Virus record (IMG/VR): IMGVR_UViG_3300008267_000581
Coordinates: 1 to 29,030 of that record
DNA length: 29,030 bases
Reading direction: 5' to 3' (one strand)
Origin: a virus
Part shown: positions 4,641 through 29,030 of the stretch, piece by piece
Numbering within the stretch: position 1 is the first letter of the stretch
How the letters are laid out: each line of letters starts with the position of its first letter
Program-made: the position numbers and the translations under genes
Notes under the pieces: generated by a model
What the model saw: only the letters and a program-made list of their open reading frames with translations
Database searches by the model: none
Told to the model about the DNA's origin: nothing

Positions 4641-6397
4641 TGAAAAAGACTTTACAAGATCAATATCTATTAATTAAAGAAGGCAAAGGACATAAAGGTG
4701 TTTTTCTTGCTGAAGCAAAACGTACATTCCCACAATATGTACCCAATGCTGCTTCATTTGATGAAGCCGTTGCTTCCCTTAAAACCAAAAATATTATATC
4801 AGAAAATATAGTTGGTTTATCTGTAGTTTCTGGATATGAACCTAAGAAAAAAGAATCATACGAAACTGCATTTGAGGCGTTTTTAGCTGAAGCTAGAAAA
4901 AAAGATCAAGAGGAAAAAGAAAAAGCTGAATTGAAAAAACCTTCAAAACAAGTAGAAGAAGATCTTGATAAACAATATGATAAAGAAGACGATAAAAACC
5001 CAGATAATATGATCTTTGGTCAAATTATGATGGGTTATTATACTGAAATGAAAGATCCTAAAAATGTTGATAAGACAATGCAACAAGTAAAAGACATTGT
5101 ATTTAAAAATTTATCAAAAGATCCAATTTATTATACAAAAGAGGGCCAATTTGGAGTTAAAGGTTTAGGATATACTACTGAAGCACCAGGTTTAGGTACT
5201 CCAAAAGAACCTAAAGGTAAATATGCTTCATCTGGATATGGTAATCTAAATGAATCTATATCTGAAAAAGATATTAATATGATGGATGAATTAGATCTTA
5301 AATCAAAATTAACCAGTATGGGTGTTACCCCTATAGTAATTGATTCTGTTCTATCAACCTCAGGAATTGAAGGATTAAGAGATAGACTTAAAGACAAACT
5401 TAAAGATAGAGCAATTGGATTTAAAGAATCTAAAGAAATTGAAGATTTTAAAGCAAGTGTTAAAAAAGCATTCTCTGAAAAACCAGATAAAAAATTCACC
5501 CCAGAAGAAATTGAAGCAAAATTAAATCAATTATATCCTGGACGCGCTGAAAGAAAAAAAGATACTCCTGAAGAATCTAAATTACGTGAAGTAATTCGTG
5601 AAATGATTAATTCTGAATTAGAGGAAGCTACTCAATTAAGTACTATCATTACCCCTAAAACAAGTGATAAAGAAAGAGAAGAAAGAGACCCTCAACAATT
5701 CATTACTACATACTTAGCGGCTCCAACAGAAGAATTAATGAAGAAAAACCAACACTTAAGAATATTAAGAGATCCACAAAATCCCGAAGAAATTAAAGGA
5801 GTTGCTATTCGTTCTAGATTTATAGCCCCACAAAACTTAAAAAAATTACCTTACGATATTAACCCAATGTTTATTAACTTTTTAAATACAGCTAATAATA
5901 TTGGAGGTGAAATTTCTCTTCCAACAAAAGAAGGAGTTATGGACACATATACTGTTCTTAACAATGTTAATATAGGTAGAGATGGAAGACTTTCATTTAA
6001 AACTCCAAATCCAAAGTTTGAAAAACCTGTTGGAGAATCTTTACGTGAAAGTGTTGAAAAAGATTTAGCTGATATTAATAAAGAAGCAGAACATGAAGTA
6101 CTTCAATCTAAATTAGATAAAATTGATGCTTTAATTGACCACAAACGTTCTAAACTTAATAAACTTGACGAGGATGAAGATATGAAAGCTTTAACTGACA
6201 AGAAAAAAGTTAAAGAACTTGAAAAAGATATCAAAAAATTAGAGCAAGCAAGAGCTAAAGTTGAAAAAATGCTTGGTAAAACCAAAGGTAAGAAAAAAGA
6301 GGTAATTGACGAAACAGACGAGGATACAATGGATGAAAACATGCCATTAGATGATAATATGATGGGTGAAGAAATGTCATACGAAGAAAATTACTAA
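4640..6397 (+). CDS. Large charged prohead-region protein of unknown function (585 aa)
   Basis: No family is recognised. The start codon overlaps the previous stop (TAATG). The protein is very rich in Lys and Glu. About residues 85-125 are a highly charged coiled-coil-like stretch, residues 210-330 are helical (with RDRLKDKLKDR), and residues 350-470 look more globular (RDPQQFITTYLA, INPMFINFLNTANN). About residues 480-550 form another strong coiled coil, and the last 30 residues are acidic and Met-rich. Placement directly before gp21 and gp22 and the scaffold-like composition suggest an internal core protein. Glu-containing sites such as LEE followed by Ala (near residue 330) would fit gp21 cleavage, but short motifs like this occur by chance. 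Confidence 0.65.
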   Translation: MKKTLQDQYLLIKEGKGHKGVFLAEAKRTFPQYVPNAASFDEAVASLKTKNIISENIVGLSVVSGYEPKKKESYETAFEAFLAEARKKDQEEKEKAELKKPSKQVEEDLDKQYDKEDDKNPDNMIFGQIMMGYYTEMKDPKNVDKTMQQVKDIVFKNLSKDPIYYTKEGQFGVKGLGYTTEAPGLGTPKEPKGKYASSGYGNLNESISEKDINMMDELDLKSKLTSMGVTPIVIDSVLSTSGIEGLRDRLKDKLKDRAIGFKESKEIEDFKASVKKAFSEKPDKKFTPEEIEAKLNQLYPGRAERKKDTPEESKLREVIREMINSELEEATQLSTIITPKTSDKEREERDPQQFITTYLAAPTEELMKKNQHLRILRDPQNPEEIKGVAIRSRFIAPQNLKKLPYDINPMFINFLNTANNIGGEISLPTKEGVMDTYTVLNNVNIGRDGRLSFKTPNPKFEKPVGESLRESVEKDLADINKEAEHEVLQSKLDKIDALIDHKRSKLNKLDEDEDMKALTDKKKVKELEKDIKKLEQARAKVEKMLGKTKGKKKEVIDETDEDTMDENMPLDDNMMGEEMSYEENY

Positions 6398-6399
6398 AA

Positions 6400-7032
6400 A
6401 TGGACAAGCAACTCTTAATAGAAACAAGACATTTTATCCCTAAACCAGTTCGCCTTATAGAAGGTATGCGAAATGGGGGAAATGTTTTTGTTGAAGGTAT
6501 TTTAGCTACTGTTGAAGTAAAAAACGGTAACGGAAGATACTATAAACGTGAGTTGTGGGAACGTGAAATTGAACATTTTCAAAGAAAAATTGATGCTAGA
6601 ACCACAGAAACATGTGGTGAATTAGACCACCCAGATTCTCAAATAATAAATTTAAAAAATGCATCACACGCTATTAGAAAAATATGGTGGGATGGAGATG
6701 AAATCTGGGGTACAGTCGAAATATTTTCAGACCCAGGAGAAAAAGGTACAGTATCTGGTCGTATAGCAGGTGCTTTAGTTAATAATGGTTTAACTATTGG
6801 TATTTCTTCTCGTGGGATGGGTTCATTAAAACAAATGGGTGAAGTAATGGAAGTACAAGATGACTTTGAATTACTAACTTGGGATTTAGTTTCAAATCCT
6901 TCAAACCCAGACTCATGGATGAAAAATGGTGCTTTAAATGAATCAAGAACAACATATTTAGATCCATATGCACGTACAAACTCAATTTTAACTGAAATCC
7001 TATGTGCAAAAGGTACGTGTCCCATATTTTAA
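6400..7032 (+). CDS. gp21: Prohead core protease (T4 gp21-like, MEROPS S80 type)
   Basis: Serine protease that matures the prohead by cleaving scaffold and capsid proteins after Glu in hydrophobic-x-Glu sites. Its 210 residues match T4 gp21 (212). The signatures are the N-terminal block GNGRYYKRELWE, the His site GELDHPD (His77) and the Ser site GISSRG (Ser136-137), then WDLVSNPSNPDSWM. These correspond to the catalytic His and Ser regions of gp21. The gene starts two bases after the previous stop. The C-terminus ends ILCAKGTCPIF, with two Cys. A strong hairpin terminator follows 24 bases downstream, so the unit from the portal to the protease may end here. Confidence 0.93.
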   Translation: MDKQLLIETRHFIPKPVRLIEGMRNGGNVFVEGILATVEVKNGNGRYYKRELWEREIEHFQRKIDARTTETCGELDHPDSQIINLKNASHAIRKIWWDGDEIWGTVEIFSDPGEKGTVSGRIAGALVNNGLTIGISSRGMGSLKQMGEVMEVQDDFELLTWDLVSNPSNPDSWMKNGALNESRTTYLDPYARTNSILTEILCAKGTCPIF

Positions 7033-7056
7033 AATGTGCAAACCGGTGACTAAATT

Positions 7057-7079
7057 GCCCTCTTTTTGAGGGCTTTTTT
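7057..7079 (+). terminator. Intrinsic terminator after the protease gene
   Basis: A perfect six-base-pair stem, GCCCTC (7057-7062) with GAGGGC (7068-7073), and a TTTTT loop, is followed by six T residues. It lies just after gp21 and before the scaffold gene, so it separates the protease from scaffold and capsid transcription. Confidence 0.85.
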
Positions 7080-7218
7080 ATTTCTTGCGACTTTGAAAAA
7101 AAATATACATACATATAACAGAATATACCACCCCTCACACACTATGTGGTATCGATATTAATTGAATTCTATTACGTTTTAAAATAAACGTATTTTCCCA
7201 ACAAAAAATTTAGGAAAA
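7080..7218 (+). other. Leader region of the scaffold-capsid unit with two inverted repeats
   Basis: The longest gene-free stretch of the + strand late block. It holds the inverted repeat ATACCAC (7125-7131) / GTGGTAT (7146-7152) with a 14-base spacer, and a second one, TACGTTT (7173-7179) / AAACGTA (7186-7192), with a 6-base TAAAAT loop. No exact TATTTATAA box is present, unlike before many other genes. A role as promoter or leader for the highly expressed gp22-gp23 pair is inferred from position only. Confidence 0.4.
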
Positions 7219-7347
7219 ATGGCAAAAAACAGAGAAATGCTTAAAGAAGCAATCGCTGAAGCTAAAGCTGTAAAAGAAAGAAGCCTTCACACCTCAATTA
7301 AAATCAATGTTATCTTTAAAACTTCAAGAAATGGAGGAAATGGATGA
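7219..7347 (+). CDS. gp22: Scaffold protein gp22, N-terminal fragment (frame broken)
   Basis: The ATG at 7219 has an A-rich leader (TTTAGGAAAA) and starts MAKNREMLKEAIAEAKAVKE, the expected helical N-terminus of a gp22-like scaffold. After residue 20 the reading becomes unrelated (RSLHTSIKIN...) and stops at 7345-7347. The expected continuation (EAFTPQLKSML) is found in the next frame from about 7280. The true scaffold start is therefore very likely here, not at the ATG at 7307, and a frame-disrupting loss lies at about 7270-7285. Confidence 0.75.
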   Translation: MAKNREMLKEAIAEAKAVKERSLHTSIKINVIFKTSRNGGNG

Positions 7348-8404
7348 AGCTGAAGAAGAAGTAAATGAAGCTGAAGACATGGAAAAAATGGATGAAGCAG
7401 AAGACAAAGAAGACATGATGGAAATTGATTTGGAAGAGCTTTTAGCAGAGCTAGAAAATGAAGAAATGGATGAGTCTTTAAACGAAGCTGAAGAAGAAGA
7501 AGAAGGTGAAGAGGAAGAAGGTGGAGAAGAAGGTGAACCATTAGATTTAGAAGACATGACTGATGAAGACCTTAAAAAAATGATCGAAGACGTAATCGCA
7601 GACATGGTTGCTTCAGGTGAACTTGAAGCAGGTGAAAGCGAAGAAGGCGAAGAAGGTGAAGAAATGGAAATGTCAGATGAAGAAGAAGTAGATTTAGCAG
7701 AACTTTTAAGAGAAATTGAAGAAATGGAAAAAGAAGAAATGTACGAAGAAAAAGAAGAGATGACCGAAGAAAAAGAAGAAGTTGAAGAAGGTCTTGGTGA
7801 TTTCTTTAAAAACCTATTCAAAGGTGCTGAACAAAAATGGCTAGAGAAAAATTACCCAGATTGGGAGAGTATTGACTCTAAAGATGAAGCTAAAATTAAA
7901 GAAATTATATCTAAATTTCAAGCTGAAATGAAAGCCGGAGGTGTTCAACCAGAATATCTAAGAGCAATGAACTCAGAACTTTTACGTCTTTTAGGAAGAG
8001 GTAGTGGAGTTAGAGGAGTAGGAGCGGGATTAACCGTAGCTCGTGAAGGTCAAGAAAAAGAACTAGAAGAAGCATACGCTACAATCGAAACTTTAAAATC
8101 AGAATTGAATGAAATTAATTTGTTAAATGCTAAATTGCTTTATACAAACAAAATCTTCAAAGCTAAAAATTTAAACGAAAATCAAAAGGTAAAAGTATTA
8201 AGTTCGTTTGATAAAGCTAAAACTGTAGGTGAAGTAAAAATGGTATTTGAAACTTTAAACGAGGGAATTAAAGTTAAAAAAGAAACCATTAAAGAAAACC
8301 TAGGTAGAGCTTCTAAATCAACTATTACTCCTACCGCAAAACAACCAATCGTAGAGTCAAACGATGTATTTAAAAGAATGCAAAAATTGGCTGGAATAAT
8401 TTAA
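7274..8404 (+). CDS. gp22: Prohead scaffold protein (T4 gp22-like), main part in a shifted frame
   Basis: Major internal scaffold of the prohead, normally digested by gp21. The frame is open from 7274 (KKEAFTPQLKSML) with the first ATG at 7307 (365 residues from there). About residues 5-160 are extremely acidic (runs of Glu, with EEEEEGEEEEGGEEGE). A short globular or amphipathic segment follows (GLGDFFKNLFKGAEQKWLEKNYPDWE), then a coiled coil (EGQEKELEEAYATIETLKSE) and a conserved-looking C-terminus ending VFKRMQKLAGII. Position between gp21 and gp23, acidity and coiled coil together support gp22. The N-terminus is separated by the break described for 7219-7347. Confidence 0.85.
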   Translation, partial: KKEAFTPQLKSMLSLKLQEMEEMDEAEEEVNEAEDMEKMDEAEDKEDMMEIDLEELLAELENEEMDESLNEAEEEEEGEEEEGGEEGEPLDLEDMTDEDLKKMIEDVIADMVASGELEAGESEEGEEGEEMEMSDEEEVDLAELLREIEEMEKEEMYEEKEEMTEEKEEVEEGLGDFFKNLFKGAEQKWLEKNYPDWESIDSKDEAKIKEIISKFQAEMKAGGVQPEYLRAMNSELLRLLGRGSGVRGVGAGLTVAREGQEKELEEAYATIETLKSELNEINLLNAKLLYTNKIFKAKNLNENQKVKVLSSFDKAKTVGEVKMVFETLNEGIKVKKETIKENLGRASKSTITPTAKQPIVESNDVFKRMQKLAGII

Positions 8405-8433
8405 TTTTAATTTAAAAACAAAAAACAAAACAA

Positions 8434-10086
8434 ATGTCAAGTATTAATTCTTTATTAGAAAGTGCAGCATCTGGATGGAAAAACATGCAGAGTGATGCAG
8501 CTCGTATGGCCTCAAAATGGTCAAAAACGGGATTATTAGAGGGTCTTGGTAGCGAAGTTGATAAAAACAACATGGCTATGATCCTTGAAAACCAAGCAAA
8601 ACAATTAGTTGTTGAAGCTAACACAACTGGAAACGGTGGTGCTACTTTTCAAGTAGGACAAGGTGAGCAATGGGCTGGTGTAGCTCTTCCATTGGTACGT
8701 AAAGTATTTGGTTCTTTATCAACTAAAGAATTTATGTCAGTACAACCAATGAATCTACCTTCAGGTCTTGTATTTTTCCTAGATTTCCAATATGGACAAG
8801 GAAAATTTGCTCCAGGATCTCCATTTGGTCCTTCTGGAAATGTTTATGGTGCTACATCTTCAATGTATGGTGACACTAACCCAGGTGTTGATTTCCTTCC
8901 AAACGGTGGTTTGTTTGGTGCTGGTAGATTTGCTTACTCAATTAACCAATTCTCAGCTTCTATCGCTTCAGACCCATCAACAGATGCAACATGGGCTGAT
9001 TTAGATTATGCATCTGAACTTTCAGCTTCAGCTGCTGCTGGTGATTTTAAAAAGTTAGTAATTCCTTCTGCTTCTTTAGCTGCTGGTGCTCCAAATGCAG
9101 ACCTTAAAGGTATCCGTGCATTTGTTATTAGCGGTTCAGGTGTAGATATTACTCAAATCCTACCACAATATACTAGTTATAACCCAGTAAGCGGTTTAAC
9201 ATTTGTATTCGCTTCAGGTTCACTTCCAACAACTGGTAGTACATTGTACTATAACATCCAACCAGTTGACAACAACAGAGGTGATTTTGAAGATCGTTCA
9301 ACTGCAGGATACGGTGGTTACCCTAACGCTGAATCAACAGCTGCTGATCAATTAGCTATCCCTTCTATCGATATCAAAATAAAATCTGAAGCTATTGTTG
9401 CTAAAACAAGAAAATTGAAAGCACAATGGACACCAGAATTTGCTCAAGATTTGAACGCATACCAATCTTTGGATGCTGAAGCTGAATTGACTTCAATCAT
9501 GTCTGAGTATATCGCTCTAGAAATCGACCTAGAAAACCTAGATATGTTGATTCAAGATGCTTCTGCTGCTGATGAGTATTGGACTGCAGAAAATAACAAA
9601 TCTTTGAATGCTGCAAAAGATGGATATGATACTTTAGGGTTCTTTAACCAACAAGGTACTTGGTTCCAAACTATAGGAACTAAATTCCAAAAAGTATCTA
9701 ACAAAATCCACTTGAAAACTTTACGTGGTGGTGCTAACTTCTTAGTATGTTCTCCAACAGTTGCAACTGTACTTGAATCTATCCCAGGATTTGCTACAAA
9801 CTCTGATGGTGATGTTACTAAAATGTCTTATGCATTTGGTATCCAAAAATCAGGTAACTTGAATAACCGTTACACTGTTTATAAAAACCCTTACATGACT
9901 GAAAACGTTATCTTGATGGGTTATAGAGGATCTCAATTCCTTGAAACAGGTGCGGTATTTGCTCCATATGTTCCACTTATCATGACTCCATTAGTGTACG
10001 ATCCAGACACTTTCACACCAAGAAAAGGTCTATTGACTCGTTACGCTAAGAAAATGATTCGTCCAGAATTCTATAACAAAAATTAG
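8434..10086 (+). CDS. gp23: Major capsid protein (T4 gp23-like)
   Basis: Main shell protein of the head; 550 residues compared with 521 in T4. The N-terminal propeptide (about residues 1-61, with SGWKNMQSDAARMASKWSKT) ends in LVVE, followed by ANTTGNGGATF. This fits gp21 cleavage after Glu61. The HK97-like core follows, with ALPLVRKVFG, QPMNLPSGLVFFLDFQYG and the C-terminal TPRKGLLTRYAKKMIRPEFY, all characteristic of the gp23 family. About residues 190-290 form a Ser/Ala/Gly-rich insertion with ISGSGVDITQILPQYTSYNP that resembles a beta-rich extra domain. Codon use leans to C-ending codons compared with neighbours, as expected for a highly expressed gene. The PhoH-like frame starts inside its last codons. 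Confidence 0.96.
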   Translation: MSSINSLLESAASGWKNMQSDAARMASKWSKTGLLEGLGSEVDKNNMAMILENQAKQLVVEANTTGNGGATFQVGQGEQWAGVALPLVRKVFGSLSTKEFMSVQPMNLPSGLVFFLDFQYGQGKFAPGSPFGPSGNVYGATSSMYGDTNPGVDFLPNGGLFGAGRFAYSINQFSASIASDPSTDATWADLDYASELSASAAAGDFKKLVIPSASLAAGAPNADLKGIRAFVISGSGVDITQILPQYTSYNPVSGLTFVFASGSLPTTGSTLYYNIQPVDNNRGDFEDRSTAGYGGYPNAESTAADQLAIPSIDIKIKSEAIVAKTRKLKAQWTPEFAQDLNAYQSLDAEAELTSIMSEYIALEIDLENLDMLIQDASAADEYWTAENNKSLNAAKDGYDTLGFFNQQGTWFQTIGTKFQKVSNKIHLKTLRGGANFLVCSPTVATVLESIPGFATNSDGDVTKMSYAFGIQKSGNLNNRYTVYKNPYMTENVILMGYRGSQFLETGAVFAPYVPLIMTPLVYDPDTFTPRKGLLTRYAKKMIRPEFYNKN

Positions 10087-10676
10087 CTAAAGCTAAAATT
10101 TTAAATGATGTAGTAACAATATTACGTGGTAAAGCAGGATCTGGAAAATCATTATTAGCAGCAAATGTTGCTTTAGATTTACTATTTAGTAGAGAAATTG
10201 AAAAAATCATAATAACTAGACCAACTGTAGTAGCAGGACAAGATATTGGATTTTTACCTGGTGATGTTAATGAAAAATTAGCCCCATTTACTGCCCCAGT
10301 TTACGAAAACATGCACCGTTTGTATAGTAAAGAAAAAATTGAAAAATGTATACAAGAAGGTGAAATTGAAATTGTGCCTGTATCATTTATGCGAGGTAGA
10401 AACTTTACAAATTGCTTGGTTGTAGTAGATGAAGCACAAAATTTAACAGATAATCAAACAGAATTACTTTTAACACGTATATGTTCAGGTAGTAAAATGA
10501 TATTTTGTGGAGATGGTGCTCAAATTGATTTACGAGATAAAAAAACTTCTGGATTTGATGTAATATGTAAACATATGAAAGAAGTACCTGGATTTAACGT
10601 AATTACATTAGAAAAAAATCATAGACATCCAATAGTGGATGATATTTTAGAAGTTTACAAATCATTTAGAGGTTAG
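10077..10676 (+). CDS. phoH: PhoH-like P-loop ATPase, start codon missing
   Basis: PhoH-family ATPase, widespread in T4-like and marine phages; its cellular role is uncertain. Walker A GKAGSGKS is encoded at 10128-10151, followed by IIITRPTV and IGFLPGD. Walker B VVDEAQNL starts at 10425. ICSGSKMIFCGDGAQIDL and EKNHRHPIVDDI follow, all in family order. The frame is open only from 10077, and no ATG, GTG or TTG precedes the P-loop; the first ATG is at 10311, after the essential motif. The coding sequence abuts the capsid stop (TAG at 10084-10086) with no intergenic gap. The 5' end therefore seems deleted, unless it is reached by a -1 frameshift from gp23. The direct repeat GCTAAA lies at the join. 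Confidence 0.85.
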   Translation, partial: QKLAKAKILNDVVTILRGKAGSGKSLLAANVALDLLFSREIEKIIITRPTVVAGQDIGFLPGDVNEKLAPFTAPVYENMHRLYSKEKIEKCIQEGEIEIVPVSFMRGRNFTNCLVVVDEAQNLTDNQTELLLTRICSGSKMIFCGDGAQIDLRDKKTSGFDVICKHMKEVPGFNVITLEKNHRHPIVDDILEVYKSFRG

Positions 10677-10697: not shown

Positions 10698-11099
10698 ATG
10701 GCCGCAGGAAGATACTCTTTTGTAATTGAACAAGGTGCTACAGTTGATTTTCAAATAGCTTACACAGATTCTAACGGAACCCCAGTTGATTTAACAGGAT
10801 ATCAAGCTAGAATGCAAATTAGACCTAGTGTTGGGTCAAATGAAGTATATATTACTTTATCATCTAGTTTAGATCCATGTGGAACTGGTTTAAATTTAAG
10901 TGGATCCAATTCAATCAACCCACCAACATCAGGAACAATAGGAATATATGTTTCTGCTATATCCTCTTCTCAACTTGATTTTACTCAAGGTGTATATGAC
11001 TTAGAACTTGCCACAGGAAGTGGAGATTGTTATGTAGTAACACGTATTTTAGAAGGAGAAGTACGACTATCTAAAAATGTAACTTTAGGGAGCTTTTAA
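10698..11099 (+). CDS. Small beta-rich virion protein preceding the fibre genes (133 aa)
   Basis: Starts MAAGRYSFVIEQGATVDFQI and continues with DLTGYQARMQIRP, a pattern typical of small immunoglobulin-like phage proteins (beta strands, a DLTG turn and a second-half EVRLSK strand). Some baseplate upper-protein (BppU-like) N-terminal domains look similar. No signal peptide or catalytic motif is seen. Its stop overlaps the start of the large fibre gene (TAATG), so the two are probably co-translated, which suggests a tail or fibre adaptor role. The assignment is by pattern only. Confidence 0.65.
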   Translation: MAAGRYSFVIEQGATVDFQIAYTDSNGTPVDLTGYQARMQIRPSVGSNEVYITLSSSLDPCGTGLNLSGSNSINPPTSGTIGIYVSAISSSQLDFTQGVYDLELATGSGDCYVVTRILEGEVRLSKNVTLGSF

Positions 11100-13612
11100 T
11101 GGCTAATAATATAAATATTAACCAAAATAATAATGCTGTATCCTTACAGGACAACAACAAAAATATTATTATTACCGATAATAGTACAGGAACTTCTGTA
11201 AATATAACCCAACCAACCACAGATATTATTACAGTATCTACTCCTGGCCCTCAAGGACCAGCAGGACAATTCCCAGATACTGGTTCATTTGTTTTAACAT
11301 CATCATTTAATGCTTTTACAGCATCATATTATACAGATAGTGCATCATTTGAGGCACAAATATTAGCAAATAGTTCAAGTATTGCATTACTTTCTGGTAG
11401 TTTTGAGACAACTAGTGGTTCATTTTCTACACGTATAACTGATTTAGAAAATTTTAGTTCATCACTTGATGCAACTTTTGCAACTGACGCTGAATTAAAC
11501 GCAGCTACGGCTTCTTTAAGTGCTAGTATAACATATTTAAGTTCAAGTTTTGAAATATTTAGTGGATCATACAATACAGGATCATTTAGTGGTTCATTTG
11601 AAGGTAATTTAAATGGAACTGCTTCATATTCAAATAATTCTATAAGTGCTTCATATGCTTTAACAGCTAGTTACGTTGAAAATGCTCAAACGGCTTCATA
11701 TGTTGAAGTAGCACAAACGGCATCTTACGTTGAAAATGCTCAAACGGCTTCATATGCTTTACAAGCATTAAGTGCATCTTATGCAATAAGTGCTTCATAT
11801 GAAATAAATTACGAAACATCTTCATCATATGCTGAAACAGCAAGTATAGCATATACTGCATCTTATGTAGAGAATGCTCAAACGGCTTCATATTATGATG
11901 AAACCGACCCTGTATTTGTAGCTAAAAGTGGTTCATTTGCAACAACTGGTTCAAATATATTTGATGGTGATCAAACTATTTCTGGTAATTTATATCAATC
12001 TGGAACATTTTACCCTAACCAAATTGATTGGTTTAGCAGCAGTATAGGATATGATACTGGTTCTTACATATTAACAACCACTGCTAATGGTTTAACTACA
12101 TATGCTAATTATCAAGATGTAGCAAATATAATAAATAGTGGAGTAGTTCTTACTTCTTCATTTAATGCTTATACAGGTTCAAATACTAGTCAATTTGCAG
12201 GTACTTCTTCATATGCTTTAACAGCTTCATATGTTGAAAATGCTCAAACGGCGTCTTATGTTTTAAATGCTATTTCAAGTTCATATGCTTTAAGTTCATC
12301 TTACGCTACAAGTGCATCCCATGCCGAAAGTTCATCATATGCTATATCAAGTTCATACGCTTTAAGTGCTTCACATGCTGAAAGTTCATCATATGCTATA
12401 ACATCTTCATATGCATTGTTTGCAGAAACAGCATCAAATGCATTAAATGCCCAAGATATTTTAATATATGTTTTAAACCAATCTGGTCAAAACATTGCAA
12501 AAGGTGTTGTAGTTCATATAACAGCATCTGGAAATTCAAGTGATATTCCTAGAATCATAACAGCTTCGTATGAAAATGATGCAAATTCTGCTAACACTTT
12601 AGGTATTACAAATCAAGCAATTGCTAACGGAGCTGAAGGTTATGTAATGACTGAAGGTATACTTAAAGGGATTAATACTCAAGCATTTACCTCTGGTCAG
12701 TTAATATATTTAGGTGCAACTGGTTCTATAATTGGAACTGCTCCTGTAGCTCCACTTCATAGTGTACGTTTAGGCCAAGTTGTTAGACAACAATCAAATA
12801 ATGGCTCGATTTATGTTCGTATAGATAATGGATATGAAATTGAGGAATTACATGATGTTCTTATTTTAACATCATCATTGCAATATGGTGATTTACTTAT
12901 GCGAAGCGGAAGTGTTTGGACAAATTCAAAACAACTTTCTGGATCATATAGTTTAACAGGTAACTTTACAGCAGCATCTATCACAGCATCTAATTTATAT
13001 GCTGGAAATACATTTATATCTGGTTCTTTAACAGTATTACAAGGAGCAACAATATATGGTTCATCTTCATTTCAATATGTAACATCATCTCAACTTGCAG
13101 TTTCAGCTTCATTTATTTCCGTAAATGTATTTGAACCAGTAGAGCGTTTTGGTGGCTTAAAAGTATATGATTCTGGATCTTCTTCTGCTTCTGCATCACT
13201 TGCTTGGGATTCATTCCATAATCATTGGGTATACCAAAATGTAAGTGGATCAACCTACACAGGAGGTATGTTACTTTCAGGTCCTCGCAATACTGGGTCT
13301 TTAGGTGACGAACCCAATTTAACTTTATGGTATGTCCCTCGATCAGATGGTGGGGATCATTTAAATGATTCACAAATATATTCAAGTGGTTCAACTACAA
13401 TTGTAACAGGTTCATTAACTGTAACCAATGGTATTACAGGAAGCTTAAGTGGAAGTGCAACAAATGCTACAAGTGCCTCATATGCTCAAACTGCTTCATA
13501 CGTTGAAACAGCACAAACTGCTAGTTATATTTTAAATGCTGTATCAAGTTCATATGCTTTAACTTCATCTTTTGCCCAAACAGCTTCATACATTGATGGT
13601 GGATTTTATTAA
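11099..13612 (+). CDS. Large TASYA-repeat tail fibre protein (837 aa)
   Basis: Probable adhesive fibre. Residues 1-45 are Asn/Ile-rich, then a short collagen-like PGPQGPAGQ segment and a Ser-rich region. From about residue 170 there are many short repeats of the form TASYALTASYVENAQTASY, a period of 6-9 residues that suggests a beta-helical or trimeric shaft. A globular domain at about 455-590 (GYVMTEGILKGINTQ, AHVAP-type Pro turn, GYEIEELHDV) is shared with the protein at 13633. A further beta domain follows (FEPVERFGGLKVYDSGS, AWDSFHNHWVYQ), then more TASYA repeats and the C-terminal YIDGGFY. It overlaps the upstream gene by one base. Fibre identity is well supported; the receptor is unknown. 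Confidence 0.85.
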   Translation: MANNININQNNNAVSLQDNNKNIIITDNSTGTSVNITQPTTDIITVSTPGPQGPAGQFPDTGSFVLTSSFNAFTASYYTDSASFEAQILANSSSIALLSGSFETTSGSFSTRITDLENFSSSLDATFATDAELNAATASLSASITYLSSSFEIFSGSYNTGSFSGSFEGNLNGTASYSNNSISASYALTASYVENAQTASYVEVAQTASYVENAQTASYALQALSASYAISASYEINYETSSSYAETASIAYTASYVENAQTASYYDETDPVFVAKSGSFATTGSNIFDGDQTISGNLYQSGTFYPNQIDWFSSSIGYDTGSYILTTTANGLTTYANYQDVANIINSGVVLTSSFNAYTGSNTSQFAGTSSYALTASYVENAQTASYVLNAISSSYALSSSYATSASHAESSSYAISSSYALSASHAESSSYAITSSYALFAETASNALNAQDILIYVLNQSGQNIAKGVVVHITASGNSSDIPRIITASYENDANSANTLGITNQAIANGAEGYVMTEGILKGINTQAFTSGQLIYLGATGSIIGTAPVAPLHSVRLGQVVRQQSNNGSIYVRIDNGYEIEELHDVLILTSSLQYGDLLMRSGSVWTNSKQLSGSYSLTGNFTAASITASNLYAGNTFISGSLTVLQGATIYGSSSFQYVTSSQLAVSASFISVNVFEPVERFGGLKVYDSGSSSASASLAWDSFHNHWVYQNVSGSTYTGGMLLSGPRNTGSLGDEPNLTLWYVPRSDGGDHLNDSQIYSSGSTTIVTGSLTVTNGITGSLSGSATNATSASYAQTASYVETAQTASYILNAVSSSYALTSSFAQTASYIDGGFY
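11620..13590 (+). repeat. In-frame TASYA-type repeat blocks within the fibre gene
   Basis: Three blocks (about 11620-11900, 12200-12440 and 13460-13590) encode tandem short repeats around (T/S)ASYA and VENAQTASY. DNA copies are nearly identical in places: GTTGAAAATGCTCAAACGGC occurs at 11675, 11729 and 12233. Such repeats favour slippage and length change of the fibre shaft. Confidence 0.8.
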
Positions 13613-13632: not shown

Positions 13633-14229
13633 ATGTCTACTAGAACTATACACTGGACTGAAGATACTAAAACAATGAAAATTCGCACGGATATTCCGGG
13701 GTTTTTCATTGAATTTGGTAATCAAATAGTTTATAGAATTAAAAACACCACAGGTAATACATTAAATCCAGGAACTGTTGTATTTTTTAATGGTTCAGAT
13801 ACTTTCCCAACAGTAACAGTTGCGGACTACAATTCATATACAACTTCGGAAGGTACAATTGGAATTTGTGCTCATTCGATTACAAACAATACAGAAGGAT
13901 ATGTTGTAACTTCGGGTATAGTTAGAAATATAAATTTAACTTCATATGCAAACGGTGCAGAAATTTATTTAGCTGCATCTGGTTCATTTACAGCAACACG
14001 CCCTGTAGCACCTTTACCTGAAGTATATTTAGGCACAGTAATTCGTTCAGGTTCTGCTGGTGTTTTAAGTGTAAATGTAGAACTTGGATTTGAAATAGAG
14101 GAACTACATAACGTTAAAATAGATAATGTGCAGGATGGGGATATATTAGCGTGGGATTCAACACAACAAGTTTGGAAAAATACCAACAACATAAGCACAT
14201 CATCCTCAATTGATGGTGGAATGTATTAA
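13633..14229 (+). CDS. Fibre-associated protein sharing a domain with the large fibre (198 aa)
   Basis: All-beta protein built around the same domain as residues 455-590 of the upstream fibre. Both have a GxVVxxN-type strand, GYVVTSGIVRNINLTS, YLAASGSFTATRPVAPLP and GFEIEELHNVKI. A GDILAWDSTQQVWKNTN motif then leads to a short Ser-rich tail ending in SIDGGMY, matching the YIDGGFY end of the upstream protein. I infer a head-fibre or tail-fibre tip paralogue, possibly produced by duplication of the fibre tail end. No enzyme motif is visible. Upstream is a weak box; downstream is a strong box before the next gene. Confidence 0.75.
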   Translation: MSTRTIHWTEDTKTMKIRTDIPGFFIEFGNQIVYRIKNTTGNTLNPGTVVFFNGSDTFPTVTVADYNSYTTSEGTIGICAHSITNNTEGYVVTSGIVRNINLTSYANGAEIYLAASGSFTATRPVAPLPEVYLGTVIRSGSAGVLSVNVELGFEIEELHNVKIDNVQDGDILAWDSTQQVWKNTNNISTSSSIDGGMY

Positions 14230-21718: not shown

Positions 21719-22903
21719 TTATTTATATAAATTAGTCATTGGGTCATAAACCAACCCACTATTTCCACCATTAAAAACACCTTCAATTAAACGATCGTAC
21801 GTTTCAATTACATCGGTATTATCAATATGGTAGCGTTGTAACACAACATCATTACGTTGATTATAACCGTCAATATCTTTATCGTGTTCCGTTAGGATAT
21901 GATTTAGCATTTTAGCGGCCTCAACTGTATCTGAACCCTCGTAATAGTAACCCAAATCTTTACACATTGGGGCATTATGTAAAACAGGATACCCTAAATA
22001 TGCGGCATCTAAATACAAATAATTTAATGGATTCAGCAATTGATGGCAAATCAAAACATCCAAATGTTGAGTAAGCATGTATGCTGTTTGATAACGTGAC
22101 TCGGCACTTACTTTATTGTCCTTATATAAATCAAATGTGGATATGATTGAGAGAAACTCTTTGTGCTTTGAAACCATCCCAGAATTAGTAATACGAAGCT
22201 TATCTATATGTTTTCTACCAATTTTAGTGCGATATGATTCTTCAGCAATCATAGCAGGAATCAAACAAAATTTAACAATGTTTAGATTTGGTTCCATTAT
22301 ACCAATTATCTTTTGTTCTTTCTTATCGTCGTATTGCCAGTTTTTCTTGTATTTTCCATCTTTATAACCTTTACTAATTTCAGCAACAGATTCAAACAAA
22401 AATTTCTCTGACCAAATAAATGGAACTGGAAATGCATTTGTACGATATAATGTTTTATATAAACCTGAATTTACTTCATCTTGTTGTGGTACATACCAAA
22501 TCTCATCGTATTGTTTTTCGTATTGAAATGTTTTATTTTCACTTGGTTTAAATAAAATGTTTTCCATGTGAATAACATAATTGTTTCCACATTTATATGA
22601 TACAACTTTTTTGTTTTTACCCGAACGTTTAAATGTTTCTAGTTGATGGTCAAATACTTGAGCACCCATACAAATTAACAAATCCATATCTAAAAAATGA
22701 TCGTTAAAATATACTATATCAATGTCGTTTAGATAAGACGGGCGTTCTGTAAAATCAACATTCATTGTATTTAGAATATAGACTTGATAGTTTTTCTTGG
22801 AGTTTTTTAACAAATGTACTAACATCAATACATTTTGTTTAATTCCATTTGTCCAAATAGATTCTTTGTTGTCTTTTAACCCTAATGTAATACCAATTTT
22901 CAT
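21719..22903 (-). CDS. DUF2827-type glycosyltransferase-like protein (394 aa)
   Basis: The N-terminus MKIGITLGLKDNKESIWTNG followed by IKQNVLMLVHLLKNS has the pattern of DUF2827 proteins, which look like GT-B-fold glycosyltransferases. The second half has features expected of the nucleotide-sugar domain: a strand-turn IIGIMEPNLNIVKF, and LDVLICHQLLNPLNYLYLDA with AAYLGYPVLHNAP, resembling the Glu/Pro loop region of GT-B enzymes. No donor or acceptor can be read from sequence. The gene is on the opposite strand to all virion genes and overlaps the J-domain gene by four bases (ATGA). Likely roles are glycosylation of Ser/Thr-rich fibres or of host surface; both are inferred. Confidence 0.7.
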   Translation of the reverse strand: MKIGITLGLKDNKESIWTNGIKQNVLMLVHLLKNSKKNYQVYILNTMNVDFTERPSYLNDIDIVYFNDHFLDMDLLICMGAQVFDHQLETFKRSGKNKKVVSYKCGNNYVIHMENILFKPSENKTFQYEKQYDEIWYVPQQDEVNSGLYKTLYRTNAFPVPFIWSEKFLFESVAEISKGYKDGKYKKNWQYDDKKEQKIIGIMEPNLNIVKFCLIPAMIAEESYRTKIGRKHIDKLRITNSGMVSKHKEFLSIISTFDLYKDNKVSAESRYQTAYMLTQHLDVLICHQLLNPLNYLYLDAAYLGYPVLHNAPMCKDLGYYYEGSDTVEAAKMLNHILTEHDKDIDGYNQRNDVVLQRYHIDNTDVIETYDRLIEGVFNGGNSGLVYDPMTNLYK

Positions 22904-23454
22904 CCGTGTGTTTTTATAAAGTGATCAATTAATTTTTGTTTTTCTTCTTCTGTTTGAGCATGAGCGTATAACCATATAAAAGAACTTTCAATAGATTTAA
23001 GCTCATCCCGTTTTTTGTTTATACGTATTTTTAAAATATCTTTATCTTCAATATCTATTGAATGTGTTATATTTAATTTAGAACATATTTCATATAAAGT
23101 AAATAAATCAAATTCATCTGCTGCTACTGTAGCTTGCATATACAATTCAGTATGTTCATCTGTTTTAGCTTTATCTGGGTGAGTTACTTTAGCAACCTCA
23201 CGATATAACTTTTTTACCTTGTCTTTAGTAGATTTATCTACTGTATTTGGATCTATTTTATCTTTTTTTGGTTGTTGTTGAGGTTCTGTTGGGGGAGGGG
23301 GAGGAGGTGTATCTCCACGTACATCTCGTATTTTATTTAAAAATTCTTCCCTGTTATTTTCAACAATTTCTTTTTTATATTCTTCATCTAGCAATAAAAA
23401 ACTATACTCTTGTAGTAATTTTTGTATTTCAAGTTGCTCTAGTCGTTTGCTCAT
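22900..23454 (-). CDS. J-domain (DnaJ-like) protein (184 aa)
   Basis: A J-domain lies at about residues 75-125, with HPD at 92-94 inside VKKLYREVAKVTHPDKAKTD and a following helix (TELYMQATVAADEFD). J-domains stimulate the ATPase of a DnaK-type Hsp70. There is no Gly/Phe-rich linker or Cys-rich zinc domain. The N-terminus is a helical, Glu-rich stretch joined by a proline run (TPPPPPPTEPQQQ), and the C-terminus is a charged helical extension. First gene of the inverted cassette, translationally coupled to the glycosyltransferase-like gene. Its start codon overlaps the palindromic promoter. It may recruit host DnaK for folding of virion proteins; partner unknown. Confidence 0.82.
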   Translation of the reverse strand: MSKRLEQLEIQKLLQEYSFLLLDEEYKKEIVENNREEFLNKIRDVRGDTPPPPPPTEPQQQPKKDKIDPNTVDKSTKDKVKKLYREVAKVTHPDKAKTDEHTELYMQATVAADEFDLFTLYEICSKLNITHSIDIEDKDILKIRINKKRDELKSIESSFIWLYAHAQTEEEKQKLIDHFIKTHG

Positions 23455-23494: not shown

Positions 23495-24763
23495 ATGCCA
23501 TCAAGTAGAAAACCCAACCCAAAATCACAACGTCAAATCTCAAATGATTTGATAAACCCATATGTTAATCCTGAAAATGGTGAGACTAGAGGTAACCCAA
23601 ACATCCCTTCAAATTTTGATCAATTTACAGCAAATGAACAAAATGGGGTTGGATTTAATCGTTCAAACCAACTTTCCTTTAAAGGAGATACAACAAAACC
23701 ATTTACACTTGGATTTGAAGATATAGATGAATCCATAATGTATTATTTTCAAAACGTAATACGCCCTTACGTTATTCAAAATGGAAACCGATTACCAGTT
23801 CCTGTAATTTATGGTTCTCCTGAAAGATGGAAGTCAACTCAAAAAGACGGATATTATAAAGATAAAAATGGCGCTATTATGGCACCATTAATTATGTTTA
23901 AACGTAGTGGGATAGATAAAAATAGATCATTGGGAAATAAATTGGATGCAAATTCTCCAAATTTATACACTTCTTGGAAAAAAGTATACAATCCAAAAAA
24001 TGCATATTCAAATTTTGATGCTTTAAATAATAGAGTCCCAACAGAACAATTTATAGTTAACGTAATACCTGATTATGTTACTATAAGTTACGATTGTGCT
24101 ATACAAACATATTATGTATCTCAATTAAATAAAATAGTTGAAGCAATAAATTATGCATCTGACTCATATTGGGGTAATCCGGAACGTTTTAAATTTATGG
24201 CTACCATAGATTCATACTCAACCCCTATTGAAATTACAGATAATTCAAGTAGAATAGCAAAAGCTACATTTACTCTAAACATCAAAGGATATATCATCCC
24301 AGATAACATCCAAAAACAAATAACTGCTATTAAAAAATACAACAGTAAATCCCAAGTTATAATTGGATTAGAGGTAGAAGGGATAGGTAGTGAATTTATT
24401 ACAACCCAACCTAAAAAAACAGCTATATCTTTACCAGGACCTGTAGAGGAAGGAACAAATATGAGTTTAATAAACAATCAAGTTTTAGTTTATTTAAATT
24501 CTAACGTTACTGTTCAAGGAACATTTGAATCTTCTAACGAAGCTTCATTCCCTTATGGGTGGTTAAGTGCCCCTCCAAACCTACCTCAAACCTCAGTTAA
24601 CGAATTTTCGTTTTTTGTTAATGGGGTATTAATTGATAATTCAAATATTATTTCTTTTACTCAAAATAATAATATTTCTACTTTAACTTTAGATATATCT
24701 TCATTAGGATATTCTTTAGATTCTACAGATGTAATAACATCAGTGGGAAAATTTAATATTTAA
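23495..24763 (+). CDS. Virion structural protein of T4-like type, role unassigned (422 aa)
   Basis: The central part has FTLGFEDIDESIMYYFQNVI followed by RPYVIQNGNRLPVPVIYG, SPERWKSTQKDGYYKDKNG and APLIMFKRSGI, a pattern I associate with unnamed virion proteins of marine T4-like phages. A conserved beta-rich segment then reads IVNVIPDYVTISYDCAIQTYY. The N-terminus is Asn/Pro-rich and unstructured. The last 100 residues add a beta domain with FSFFVNGVLIDNSNI, resembling the YLNGLL modules elsewhere in the window. It follows the divergent promoter. A baseplate or tail-tube-proximal position is possible, but no T4 gene number can be given with confidence. Confidence 0.7.
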   Translation: MPSSRKPNPKSQRQISNDLINPYVNPENGETRGNPNIPSNFDQFTANEQNGVGFNRSNQLSFKGDTTKPFTLGFEDIDESIMYYFQNVIRPYVIQNGNRLPVPVIYGSPERWKSTQKDGYYKDKNGAIMAPLIMFKRSGIDKNRSLGNKLDANSPNLYTSWKKVYNPKNAYSNFDALNNRVPTEQFIVNVIPDYVTISYDCAIQTYYVSQLNKIVEAINYASDSYWGNPERFKFMATIDSYSTPIEITDNSSRIAKATFTLNIKGYIIPDNIQKQITAIKKYNSKSQVIIGLEVEGIGSEFITTQPKKTAISLPGPVEEGTNMSLINNQVLVYLNSNVTVQGTFESSNEASFPYGWLSAPPNLPQTSVNEFSFFVNGVLIDNSNIISFTQNNNISTLTLDISSLGYSLDSTDVITSVGKFNI

Positions 24764-24780: not shown

Positions 24781-24924
24781 ATGGCAAAAGCAAAGTTACA
24801 ATCCGCAATTTCATTTGTAAAAAAACCTAGAAAAAAACGTCCTGGAGTTCATGCAAAATCAAAAACTAGCAAAACAAAAACTAGTAAAAATTATACTAAA
24901 CCATACGTAGCACAAGGTAGATAA
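24781..24924 (+). CDS. Small highly basic protein (47 aa)
   Basis: Starts MAKAKLQSAISFVKKPRKKR and continues PGVHAKSKTSKTKTSKN, ending KPYVAQGR. Roughly a third of the residues are Lys or Arg and there are almost no acidic residues. It is preceded by a late-promoter-like box, and its stop overlaps the start of the giant downstream gene (TAATG), so it is very likely a real gene. I recall similar small KRPGVHAK-type proteins among T4-like marine phages without an assigned role. Nucleic-acid binding or virion incorporation would fit the charge, but this is not shown. Confidence 0.7.
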   Translation: MAKAKLQSAISFVKKPRKKRPGVHAKSKTSKTKTSKNYTKPYVAQGR

Positions 24925-27900
24925 TGGCATTAATTCAACCTAAACAACTAGCAGGACAATTTTATGAAATAACAGGATCTTTTACAGGTTCTTTTATTGG
25001 AGATGGTAGTGGATTAACAAATGTACCTGGAACTGGAGGAGGTTATGCTCAATTAATTATTACCACAACATCTTCATTTAATACAAGTGATTTAATTGGA
25101 GGTGTTTCCCAAAATGGTAAACATGTAGTAGTAAATAATGGATCTTCTAATATAACAATTACAGTAGATAATTCTGTAAATTCATTTTACCAAATGATAG
25201 GAACTGGAAATATTACATTTGTTTCTGGTTCTGGAAGAACATTAACTGCTCCAAATGGTACAACAGTATTTACTCAATATAATGGAGCTAATTTATCATT
25301 TAATGGAACCGAAAATATTTTAGTATTAAATAACGCTGGTTTTTTTTTTGATAACTCTCCCGAATTAAGGTTAGGAGATTATAGAATAGCGGAACAAATA
25401 AATGATCCTAGATTTCCACCATTAACTCCATTAAATTCATCTTCGGGTGAATATCTTACAGTAAATACAAGTAATTATATAGCTAGAACCCAAGATACTT
25501 GGTTTGATTTAGCATTAGATCTTTCAAATTTACCTGGAAATATAACAGATTATACTTTTTATGCAAAACGAACAATACCTGGATACTCTGATTTAGCAAT
25601 CGGACTACAATTCACTTCTTCAGCTACACATTCATATATCCAAACAAATGTTAGATACCCACTATCAAATGGTATAATCCCTAGCTCTAAAACAATGGCT
25701 GTTGAAATTACAGCTAAATCAGGTTCACAATACATTGACTCAGTAGTTTATAAATTTCAAGTTGAACCTACTGCTTCATTAACATCAGGTAGTATTATCC
25801 CATTAATTATAGATGTTGATCAATCTTCTTCAAATTCACCTTCATCTTCACTTGTATTTGGTGTCCCGTTTGCACCTGGGCAATTATGGGATGAAAATAG
25901 AGTTACATTACAATATGTTGGAGGAACTCCAATTGAATATCAACGTGAAATAACTGGAAACTGGATCACAAGTGGATCTATCCAATGGGTACAATTAAGA
26001 ACAGTAGCCCCTTCAGGTAGTCAATTAGAGGTAGCCATTGATGGAACAAATCATCCTTCAACAGGATCTAATTTAGTTACGGATTTAGGTGGAGGACAAT
26101 ATCAAATGGTAGCAGGTGATTATACTTTAACACTTGCAAAAGAACATTCTCCTATTAAAACAATTAAAAAAGGGACAACTACTATAGCAGATAACATTGG
26201 TGCTAAAGGTTTATATTTATATATTAGTAATACTGCTTTAACAGCAAGTGGTGAATTAGCCCAATCATCAACTGATGTTGACATAACAGTTGAATCTGCT
26301 GGACCTGTTTCTTCTTGTGTTAAAATAGAAGGTGACTATATCACCTCAGGTGGAACACGAGTAGCTAAACATATTACACGTTTAGAAAGTCACAAAGGAA
26401 TTGATGGTGTAAATATATCTCATACTTTAGTACTTTCAAATTCAACAAATAATATTTGGTTTAGTGAAATGGGATGGGAATTTTCAACTAACCCAACTAC
26501 TTCTACCTCTGTTACTGCTTTATTTAATATTACCTCAAGTAATTTAGAAAACATAACAGAAATTCCTTTATCTAGTTTAACTACCGCTAGTATATTACAA
26601 GACATTTACCCTACGTTTGGTAGAACTGGTTCTGGAGTTCCATTTACGTATCAACATTTTTCAATATATGAAAATGGTGTTGAAACTGCATCATATCCAA
26701 CAGGATCAATGGGTGAATGGTTTGGATATAAAAGTGACAATAATGGTTTAGTTTGGGGTATTCAAGATGCCGCTAGACAAGCCCCAAAAGAAATTGTTGT
26801 AACTAGAGATAAAATTAACTTAATGTTATTTTCCCCAAATGGAGGAGATGAAATTGATTTTAGAAACCCAACCCTATATAACCGTTGGAACCTATCAGGT
26901 ATATTACCTTACTTAGGAACTACTTCAGCTTCATTTGCTGCAGCACCAAGTGATGCTTATGGGTGGTCAAAAACAACTAATCTTTTACTTTTACCAATTG
27001 ATACAACTCCAAATACATCTTCAATTGCTCAAGAAGCAAATAAATTACTTTACCCTGACTATGGGTATGTAGATGCTAATTGGATGTATCAATCAGATGC
27101 TATGGGTCCTTTATACCCATATGATTCTGCTAGTTTTGATTTAGCTGAAAAAGTTATAGATTCCCAAATATCATACTATACTGGAAGTGTACCTGGAGTA
27201 GCATATAATACATTTTTTGATTATTACAATGGTCCGGCATATTTTTACAACCAACGTTATCGTTTATCATATACATTAATACATGATTCATGGTTATTAA
27301 CCGCTAGAAATGCAAACAGAAATGAGAATATTCGAAGACAAACTAGAAAATTCTCAGAAAATGTTTCAAAAGCTTTTAGAGACAGTTATATCTGCCATTT
27401 AGATGAACCTGTAGGTACCCCTAACCGTAAATTTAAAGGTTTATTTATAGATGGTCAAGGAGTTGCTGGTGATTTCCCTATGTATTGGGAGGATCGACCA
27501 GCATATAATTTAGCTACCTCAGGTGATGTCCTTAATCTTATTTGGGATTATCACATATCAGGGGATAGAAGATCTAAAGATGTTGCTATTGATTATGGGA
27601 ATGGTTTTAAAAATAATTTTAATTATAATCAAAGACAATTTAGAACACTACCTAATATAAAACATATAGCTCATGCTTACCAATTTTCAGGTGACTATGA
27701 AATGCTATTAGCTGTTGAAAAATTAAAAAATAGCTACAGCTTAATTGTAAATCAATCTGGTCCTTTAGTGTATGATAAGGATGGTGCTCTTTTACTTTCT
27801 AAAATTAAAGCATATGAAAGTACAACATATAAAACAAATACCGATGTTGGCTCTATAATTGAAGCTTGGAAAGTAACAGGCTCAGATATATTTAAACAAA

Positions 27901-29030
27901 TGGCACTTCGTTTAGCAAAATATTGGAAAAATGCTAACATGGGAAAAGATGCATTTACTAGAATATATGGTCAATATGATACATTCTTATATTACAATAC
28001 AGATTTACTTTCACAAGGTCAAATTATAGATTTTAATTTTAGGGGAAAAAATTTAAAATTTTTTCAAGGTTCTTATTTAAATGTAGGTTTTTCAACATAT
28101 GATACTATTATAGGGGGGATGCCTTATCAAATGGATGTTATTTCCAAAACAAGTGCAAGTTTGCAACCTGTATCTTCATTTGTTTCGTTTAGAGACTATC
28201 AAAATAGTAACCCTATTTTTATTAAAAAGAACAATAATGGGAAAGGAATAGTAACCTACCTACAACCTGCTTCTTCTATAGAAGAACCTGAAGATGAAGT
28301 AGACGATGACGAAATTTCAAACAATTTTATACAAGGAGGATTTACCTTTAAAATTTTAAAAAACCCAGCTACTACACGAACTTGGTCAGGTAATGATCCT
28401 ATTCCTGTAATACAAAATGGTGTTAATCCTAGTACAGCGATACAATTAGAAATATCAAGAGACTTAGGTGCAAATGACTTAACTCGTGATTTTGCATATA
28501 AATTTCAACCAACTGTTAGAGGAAATCAATTTTTAGTAACAGATTCAACCTCATCTATAGTATTTAGAAGTGATGGTTACTGGATGCCTAAAATGGTAAG
28601 ACCAAACTACACGTATTATTTTAATGTAGATTCAACATCTTCTTTACCTACCATATTTTTTGAATACCCAACTAATTTATACGACCCTACAGGAAGTTTA
28701 TACACTGGAACAGCAGTTTCAAAAAGTATAAATCTACCTTCAACCGGCTTATGGTCATTTACCCCAGGAGATTTTCCTTGTTTAGTATCTAGCTCAGGAA
28801 TACCTCCTTATTTTGCAATTAATAGTGGAAGTTTTTGGTTTGATCCTTTAACTACTATCCAAGCAACTACCTCTTCTAGTGTATATGATGATATTAAAGT
28901 ACAACCTCAATATTACCCTAACCTAGGAACTCTTACCGGTTCTTTAATTAGTGGTAGTTTAATAGGTGGTGGTTCTGGTATTTTAAATATTGCATCTTCA
29001 TCAGGCGATACAGAATTATTTAGTAATGTA
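24924..29030 (+). CDS. Giant virion protein with PcRGLX/YetA (PL26-like) lyase architecture, 3' end cut
   Basis: Open for 1,369 codons with no stop, running off the window. Residues 1-140 are fibre-like (TGSFTGSFIGDGSGLTNV). The middle follows the exo-rhamnogalacturonan lyase/YetA family in order. A RIFT-type N-domain has VFGVPFAPGQL (Gly313 onward), W347 and GSIQW (351-355). A beta-sandwich has SAGPVSSCVKIEG (GPV 460-462) and VNISHTLVLSN (about 496-506). An alpha/alpha toroid at about 600-1050 has YWEDRPAYN (854-862), YHISGDRR (876-883), HIAHAYQFSGDY (914-925) and EAWKVTGSD (980-988). Beta domains follow. PL26 enzymes cut rhamnogalacturonan; here a tail-borne depolymerase is inferred. Activity and substrate are untested, and the catalytic residues cannot be fixed by eye. 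Confidence 0.8.
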   Translation, partial: MALIQPKQLAGQFYEITGSFTGSFIGDGSGLTNVPGTGGGYAQLIITTTSSFNTSDLIGGVSQNGKHVVVNNGSSNITITVDNSVNSFYQMIGTGNITFVSGSGRTLTAPNGTTVFTQYNGANLSFNGTENILVLNNAGFFFDNSPELRLGDYRIAEQINDPRFPPLTPLNSSSGEYLTVNTSNYIARTQDTWFDLALDLSNLPGNITDYTFYAKRTIPGYSDLAIGLQFTSSATHSYIQTNVRYPLSNGIIPSSKTMAVEITAKSGSQYIDSVVYKFQVEPTASLTSGSIIPLIIDVDQSSSNSPSSSLVFGVPFAPGQLWDENRVTLQYVGGTPIEYQREITGNWITSGSIQWVQLRTVAPSGSQLEVAIDGTNHPSTGSNLVTDLGGGQYQMVAGDYTLTLAKEHSPIKTIKKGTTTIADNIGAKGLYLYISNTALTASGELAQSSTDVDITVESAGPVSSCVKIEGDYITSGGTRVAKHITRLESHKGIDGVNISHTLVLSNSTNNIWFSEMGWEFSTNPTTSTSVTALFNITSSNLENITEIPLSSLTTASILQDIYPTFGRTGSGVPFTYQHFSIYENGVETASYPTGSMGEWFGYKSDNNGLVWGIQDAARQAPKEIVVTRDKINLMLFSPNGGDEIDFRNPTLYNRWNLSGILPYLGTTSASFAAAPSDAYGWSKTTNLLLLPIDTTPNTSSIAQEANKLLYPDYGYVDANWMYQSDAMGPLYPYDSASFDLAEKVIDSQISYYTGSVPGVAYNTFFDYYNGPAYFYNQRYRLSYTLIHDSWLLTARNANRNENIRRQTRKFSENVSKAFRDSYICHLDEPVGTPNRKFKGLFIDGQGVAGDFPMYWEDRPAYNLATSGDVLNLIWDYHISGDRRSKDVAIDYGNGFKNNFNYNQRQFRTLPNIKHIAHAYQFSGDYEMLLAVEKLKNSYSLIVNQSGPLVYDKDGALLLSKIKAYESTTYKTNTDVGSIIEAWKVTGSDIFKQMALRLAKYWKNANMGKDAFTRIYGQYDTFLYYNTDLLSQGQIIDFNFRGKNLKFFQGSYLNVGFSTYDTIIGGMPYQMDVISKTSASLQPVSSFVSFRDYQNSNPIFIKKNNNGKGIVTYLQPASSIEEPEDEVDDDEISNNFIQGGFTFKILKNPATTRTWSGNDPIPVIQNGVNPSTAIQLEISRDLGANDLTRDFAYKFQPTVRGNQFLVTDSTSSIVFRSDGYWMPKMVRPNYTYYFNVDSTSSLPTIFFEYPTNLYDPTGSLYTGTAVSKSINLPSTGLWSFTPGDFPCLVSSSGIPPYFAINSGSFWFDPLTTIQATTSSSVYDDIKVQPQYYPNLGTLTGSLISGSLIGGGSGILNIASSSGDTELFSNV

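Follow-up and report, generated by a model that had tools for sequence, protein, structure and literature searches.

The open reading frame that closes a 29,030-nucleotide viral contig (IMG/VR record IMGVR_UViG_3300008267_000581, positions 1 to 29,030; hereafter, the window) raises the question of whether a phage virion protein carries a polysaccharide lyase fold of the PL26 type and, if so, whether this module still cuts a sugar chain. PL26 enzymes are exo-rhamnogalacturonan and pectin lyases from bacteria and fungi. Phage depolymerases are, to our knowledge, known almost exclusively as beta-helix and propeller enzymes, and the same two folds are those on which depolymerase prediction tools have been trained. 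A PL26-like virion module, if real, would add a fold to the phage depolymerase repertoire. An earlier note, made from the sequence alone, had proposed such a module in this protein, fused behind a fibre-like start.

The putative adhesin gene and its genomic neighbourhood

The ORF (24924-29030, plus strand, as are all the parts of the protein given below) comprises at least 1369 codons, with no stop ahead of the contig end. Three more IMG/VR contigs contain complete adhesin homologues and form with the window a four-contig family; the homologues are 1608 (L002), 2044 (L003) and 1585 (L010) amino acids long and match the window protein at 90%, 86% and 63% in the core, respectively. When IMG/VR was scanned again with profiles of the phages, of bacteria and of the sandwich alone, by means of short peptide patterns that may miss relatives, nothing beyond this family and no canonical PL26 was recovered from the viral contigs; tblastn searches of INPHARED gave no credible match to the core, and bacterial and archaeal PL26 queries gave the same result.

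The upstream part of the window is a T4-like head module, including the Gp17 large terminase, the Gp20 portal, the Gp21 prohead protease and the major capsid protein Gp23 (8434-10086, plus strand), whose closest named relatives belong to the Flavobacterium phage immuto group (57%). These genes, together with the tail sheath located directly downstream of the adhesin in L003, identify the source as a T4-like myovirus; the window ends before the sheath position. Head and neck genes are in the same order as in Flavobacterium phage vB_FspM_immuto_2-6A (MCP 57%, terminase 57%, portal 65%), in which none of the structural-region proteins compared is PL26-like. A homologue of immuto gp057 (23495-24763, plus strand; 40% identity) directly precedes the adhesin in the window, L002 and L003; in L010 the adhesin comes sooner in the gene order, with the PhoH-like gene region on one side and the neck gene on the other.

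Some features of this neighbourhood are recorded here in their own right. The window Gp20 portal (1464-3303) occupies two ORFs, 1464-2711 and 2731-3303, each of which matches immuto gp074, with a frameshift near 2700 that represents either a sequencing error or a real split. Just after the capsid gene begins an open PhoH-like frame (10089-10676) whose GKAGSGKS motif is intact, although no standard start codon occurs in it upstream of 10311. Two more proteins of fibre or decoration type, each with a phage cement-like domain (PF09956), are coded at 11099-13612 and 13633-14229, and parts of the first are found again in fibre-like genes that follow the L002 adhesin. On the minus strand, the gene at 21719-22903 shows a strong match to DUF2827 (E=2.9e-99) and no INPHARED relative, and the one at 22900-23454 a weak DnaJ-like match; both genes are absent from the corresponding place in L002 and L003.

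The protein starts with an anchor (MALIQPKQLAGQ...GSFTGSFIGDGSGLTNV, 24924-25025) that varies among the relatives, followed by a region without family match (residues 41-300, 25044-25823) that is common to all four phages. The N-terminus MALIQPKQLAGQ...GDGSGLTNV is found in both the window and L002; L003 starts in a similar way and continues into a region of about 430 residues, while L010 has a swapped, collagen-like start. The region in L003 (gene at 3757-9891) contains SHAEG repeats, YadA-head-like by eye, and separates the anchor from the PL26-like module; its insertion is a modular stalk exchange. At the opposite end, the L002 and L010 proteins lead to a laminin-G/concanavalin-A-like domain (PF13385; 25.0 versus a cut-off of 27.6 bits, E=2.3e-5, in L002, and E=7.8e-4 in L010); the corresponding C-terminal region of the window ORF, after the toroid (28104-29030), is cut by the contig end and stops short of this domain. 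Judged by analogy, a protein made of anchor, module and lectin-like end is built as receptor-binding and depolymerase proteins usually are.

The fibre-like start described in the earlier note is supported, as a fibre-type N-terminus on a gene lying in a T4-like structural cassette; the synteny, the swapped N-termini and the lectin-like C-terminus of the relatives indicate, at the sequence level, a virion adhesin, which would be carried on the particle. The gene could instead code for a large secreted or intracellular enzyme, foreign to the virion and carried as an auxiliary metabolic gene, as might be thought from the cellular PL26 genes that adjoin GH78, GH2 or GH88 catabolic genes; this is very improbable, given that fibre-type N-termini and a LamG C-terminus are fused to the module and that in all four contigs the adhesin lies within the structural cassette.

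Sequence homology to the PL26 family

The module comprises a RIFT-barrel-like domain (PcRGLX_1st, PF19501-like; residues about 304-375, 25833-26048), a central beta-sandwich (PcRGLX_2nd, PF21345-like; residues about 376-700, 26049-27023) and a predicted alpha/alpha toroid (PcRGLX_3rd-like, below PF21346 detection; residues about 701-1060, 27024-28103). The motifs quoted for the first two domains in the earlier note are all present in the ORF and in the order given there, that is GVPFAPGQL (residue 313), GSIQW (351-355), SAGPV (458-462), KIEG (467-470) and NISHTLVLSN (497-506), and they map to RIFT and sandwich positions that the cellular family conserves; all four phage homologues retain G313, P315, G319, W347, G351, S352, W355, E457, G460, G470, R486 and H500. 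For the toroid, the earlier note had pointed to SGD/TGS helix turns, but these are not characteristic of PL26.

Pfam finds PcRGLX_1st (PF19501) at residues 308-363 (E=0.01, 16.1 versus a cut-off of 22.1) and PcRGLX_2nd (PF21345) at residues 449-522 (E=3.6e-5, 23.4 versus 23.5, 0.1 bit short), in the correct order, and no match to PcRGLX_3rd (PF21346); none of the three domains attains its gathering score in the window protein, and the curated PF21345 cut-off is reached by one relative, L003 (24.1, genome search). Since the window adhesin has no PHROG match and the Pfam score is just under the cut-off, the module would be missed by current annotation.

Searches against cellular sequences revealed a large set of relatives: tblastn of the core against plasmids found three cellular proteins at marginal E-values, all of them full three-domain PL26 proteins by Pfam, and an alignment-driven scan of bacterial genomes found 124 confirmed relatives over many phyla, with tblastn E-values down to 1e-11, 80 of which were kept (L011-L090). 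Profile-profile comparison (hhalign) between the four phages and these 80 bacterial proteins aligned all three domains, with P=99.4% and E=5e-21; the RIFT barrel and sandwich by themselves gave 98.9% and the toroid by itself 6%. The toroid score of 30.6, over 268 collinear columns, was exceeded by 1 of 200 column shuffles, so that toroid homology is supported, yet modest when taken alone. A phmmer search of the window protein against PDB sequences returned nothing, as expected at such divergence. Pectate-lyase beta-helix homology, which was also considered, had no supporting match and fell out of favour.

As far as the alignments go, a chance origin of the RIFT and sandwich motif matches is excluded, and residues ~305-1060 are homologous to the PL26 exo-rhamnogalacturonan lyases (PcRGLX/YetA). 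The RIFT and sandwich homology covers the bacterial L011-L090 as well as the archaeal L005, with the toroid collinear; most cellular PL26-like proteins have 840-950 amino acids, and some up to about 1200, whereas the phage homologues have 1585-2044. In the RIFT-sandwich tree the four phages lie outside all cellular rows, and the branch leading to them, at 8.7 changes per site, is too long for a donor to be named. Within the phage family the module is under purifying selection, with dN/dS of 0.03-0.17 over its three domains (window versus L002 and L003).

Predicted fold and replaced toroid motifs

An AlphaFold model of residues 40-1110, obtained from an alignment of four phage and 43 bacterial sequences, has a mean pLDDT of 55 and a pTM of 0.61, a middling quality: model residues about 270-460 mostly reach pLDDT 80-93, and confidence is uneven along the helical C-terminal part, where the better helices are at 60-79. 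In Foldseek, 13 PcRGLX chains were on top (E 1.7e-22 to 1.5e-20), followed by GH38 at 3.7e-5; VIA gave Z 28.3-28.6 for PcRGLX and 17.8 for the next structure, and all four PcRGLX crystal entries (5xq3, 5xqg, 5xqj, 5xqo) ranked first by either method. The best superposition in VIA (Z 28.6) comprises 529 residues at 3.1 A, or 617 at 3.9 A untrimmed, within model residues 242-1057, with about 15% identity over the structurally aligned residues. PcRGLX is the best structural match by a wide margin and has the same domain order: the succession of RIFT barrel, beta-sandwich and alpha/alpha toroid that had been predicted is found in the model, with the toroid at medium confidence. The anticipated likeness to PL26 profiles and structures held in Foldseek and fell short at the PF19501 cut-off.

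Since its alignment included bacterial PL26 sequences, the model does not count as evidence separate from the homology, and a toroid model from phage sequences alone, intended to remove this bias, was uninformative (pLDDT 30). The toroid, whose detailed fold would resemble that of PcRGLX, is the weakest part of the PL26-like assignment, since PF21346 has no match, the toroid-only profile evidence is modest and the phage-only model is poor. Further down the structural matches, GH38, GH2 and mutarotases covered mainly the sandwich, which is common in carbohydrate enzymes, and were rejected; among viral structures in BFVD, protein A0A516M318 (738 aa) gave a weak match (E=2.8e-5, TM 0.44 on its own length). 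Shared ancestry with PL26 is established by fold and sequence, and the presence of a PL26-like fold within a phage adhesin is well supported.

The comparison with the PcRGLX active site, which had also been suggested, led to a different picture, where 'active-site residues' means those conserved across the PL26 family and not the experimentally proven catalytic set of PcRGLX. The toroid motifs WYGFxxYGDxxHxYD, WDNxEL and SRHxxxHW occur, with minor variants, in PcRGLX and almost every cellular row, and contain residues that do not vary even in one archaeal and one fungal relative; in all four phages they are replaced. The remodelled motif YNTFFDYYNGPAYFYNQRYRLSYTLIHDSWLL (residues 761-792, 27204-27299) takes the place of the cellular WYGFWNYGDVMHxYDxxRHxWRYDVGGYAWDNxELxxDxW, and DSYICHLDEPVGTPNRKFK (residues 820-838, 27381-27437) that of EVDxYHxGxxxGLGSRHNV; the cellular WDNxEL segment faces a gap in the phage alignment, and YGD, RH and HW have zero occurrences in residues 40-1110 of the window protein. 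Divergent cellular proteins, such as L021 and L089, keep WYGxxDYGD and RRH, whereas the phages have neither. Catalysis may be lost, because the absent motifs hold family-invariant residues.

These replacements bear on the proposal that the protein digests pectin-like or rhamnose-containing polymers. A canonical PL26 exo-rhamnogalacturonan lyase would have the same PcRGLX fold and domain order; against it stand the replacement of the toroid motifs in every phage, the lack of a Pfam domain at gathering score in the window protein and the very long, separate phage branch, and we regard it as highly improbable. PL26 chemistry and pectin digestion are not supported, and rhamnogalacturonan I is unlikely to be the substrate of PcRGLX-type cleavage here. 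The module differs from PcRGLX also in being part of a fibre-type protein, and it is not filed as a PL26 enzyme, because it remains below the curated cut-offs and lacks the family-conserved toroid motifs.

Proposed binding and cleavage of host glycans

Of the columns conserved in at least 93% of the cellular rows, 18 of 38 in the RIFT barrel and sandwich are retained by the phages, but only 17 of 64 in the toroid, the latter count including phage-gapped columns. Between residues 740 and 900, cellular-invariant columns are more often invariant in the phages than the other columns, even where the residue has changed (28/38 versus 53/106, p=0.009, a test that rests on four phages, three of them close), which supports the alignment in this region. 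The charged or aromatic residues H787, D788, H825, D827, E828, R835 and K836 are invariant in all four phages. This pattern suggests that the toroid pocket was remodelled rather than decayed, an apparent case of a conserved enzyme pocket rebuilt with new residues.

The module might also be a catalytically dead, lectin-like derivative of PL26, a receptor-binding domain that would do nothing more than bind the host glycan; the loss of most of the cellular-invariant toroid residues and the lectin-like LamG domain of the relatives fit this, whereas the unusual conservation of toroid-core columns with new residues, those just listed included, does not, as a pocket without function ought to drift, even though one used for binding would stay conserved too. 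We consider such a binding-only module less likely than a cutting one, but a serious possibility. On balance, and with modest confidence, we favour a tail-fibre or adhesin protein of the virion of a T4-like myovirus, whose PL26-like module both binds and cuts host polysaccharide. In the complete relatives, the three-domain module lies between an interchangeable N-terminal anchor and the C-terminal lectin-like domain; lectin and toroid cleft would hold the host surface polysaccharide, and the remodelled cleft, if its pocket is functional, would cut the polysaccharide so held, letting the phage reach the cell surface. Binding of a host surface glycan in the toroid cleft is what we infer for the module, which probably cuts it as well. 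That the PL26 scaffold has been turned into a new polysaccharide-cleaving family, with another active site and another substrate, acting as a virion depolymerase of RIFT-sandwich-toroid and not beta-helix type, is a plausible but tentative proposal. The protein may be a phage tip, for cutting or binding sugars, of a kind not described so far.

The earlier note was right that most phage depolymerases have a beta-helix: DepoScope assigned 85.8% of the folds to beta-helices, 12.1% to propellers and 1.1% (11) to the alpha/alpha toroid, a class that was dropped for having too few examples (PMC11326577). These 11 hits show a toroid-type polysaccharide-degrading fold in phage proteins, as in the present case, so that an alpha/alpha toroid in phage proteins is not new by itself; in the DepoScope text searched, PL26 is not mentioned for them (PMC11326577). 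The view that no virion depolymerase of the PL26 class had been described holds for the phage literature and INPHARED searched, but the toroid fold itself was already known. In the literature consulted, another phage 'rhamnogalacturonan lyase' match is a beta-helix (PMC13243795), and others are pectinesterase/lyase-type assignments (PMC10194240).

Two observations concern the cellular proteins. L021 (1007-3649) and L089 (5956-8622) belong to a divergent Lewinellaceae/Saprospiraceae PL26-like branch, long in the tree, in which the toroid motif is shortened to WYGMFDYGD...RRH. The haloarchaeon Halomontanus rarus codes for a three-domain PL26-like protein (L005, 3509-6037), annotated as hypothetical and located beside GH78 and GH2 genes.
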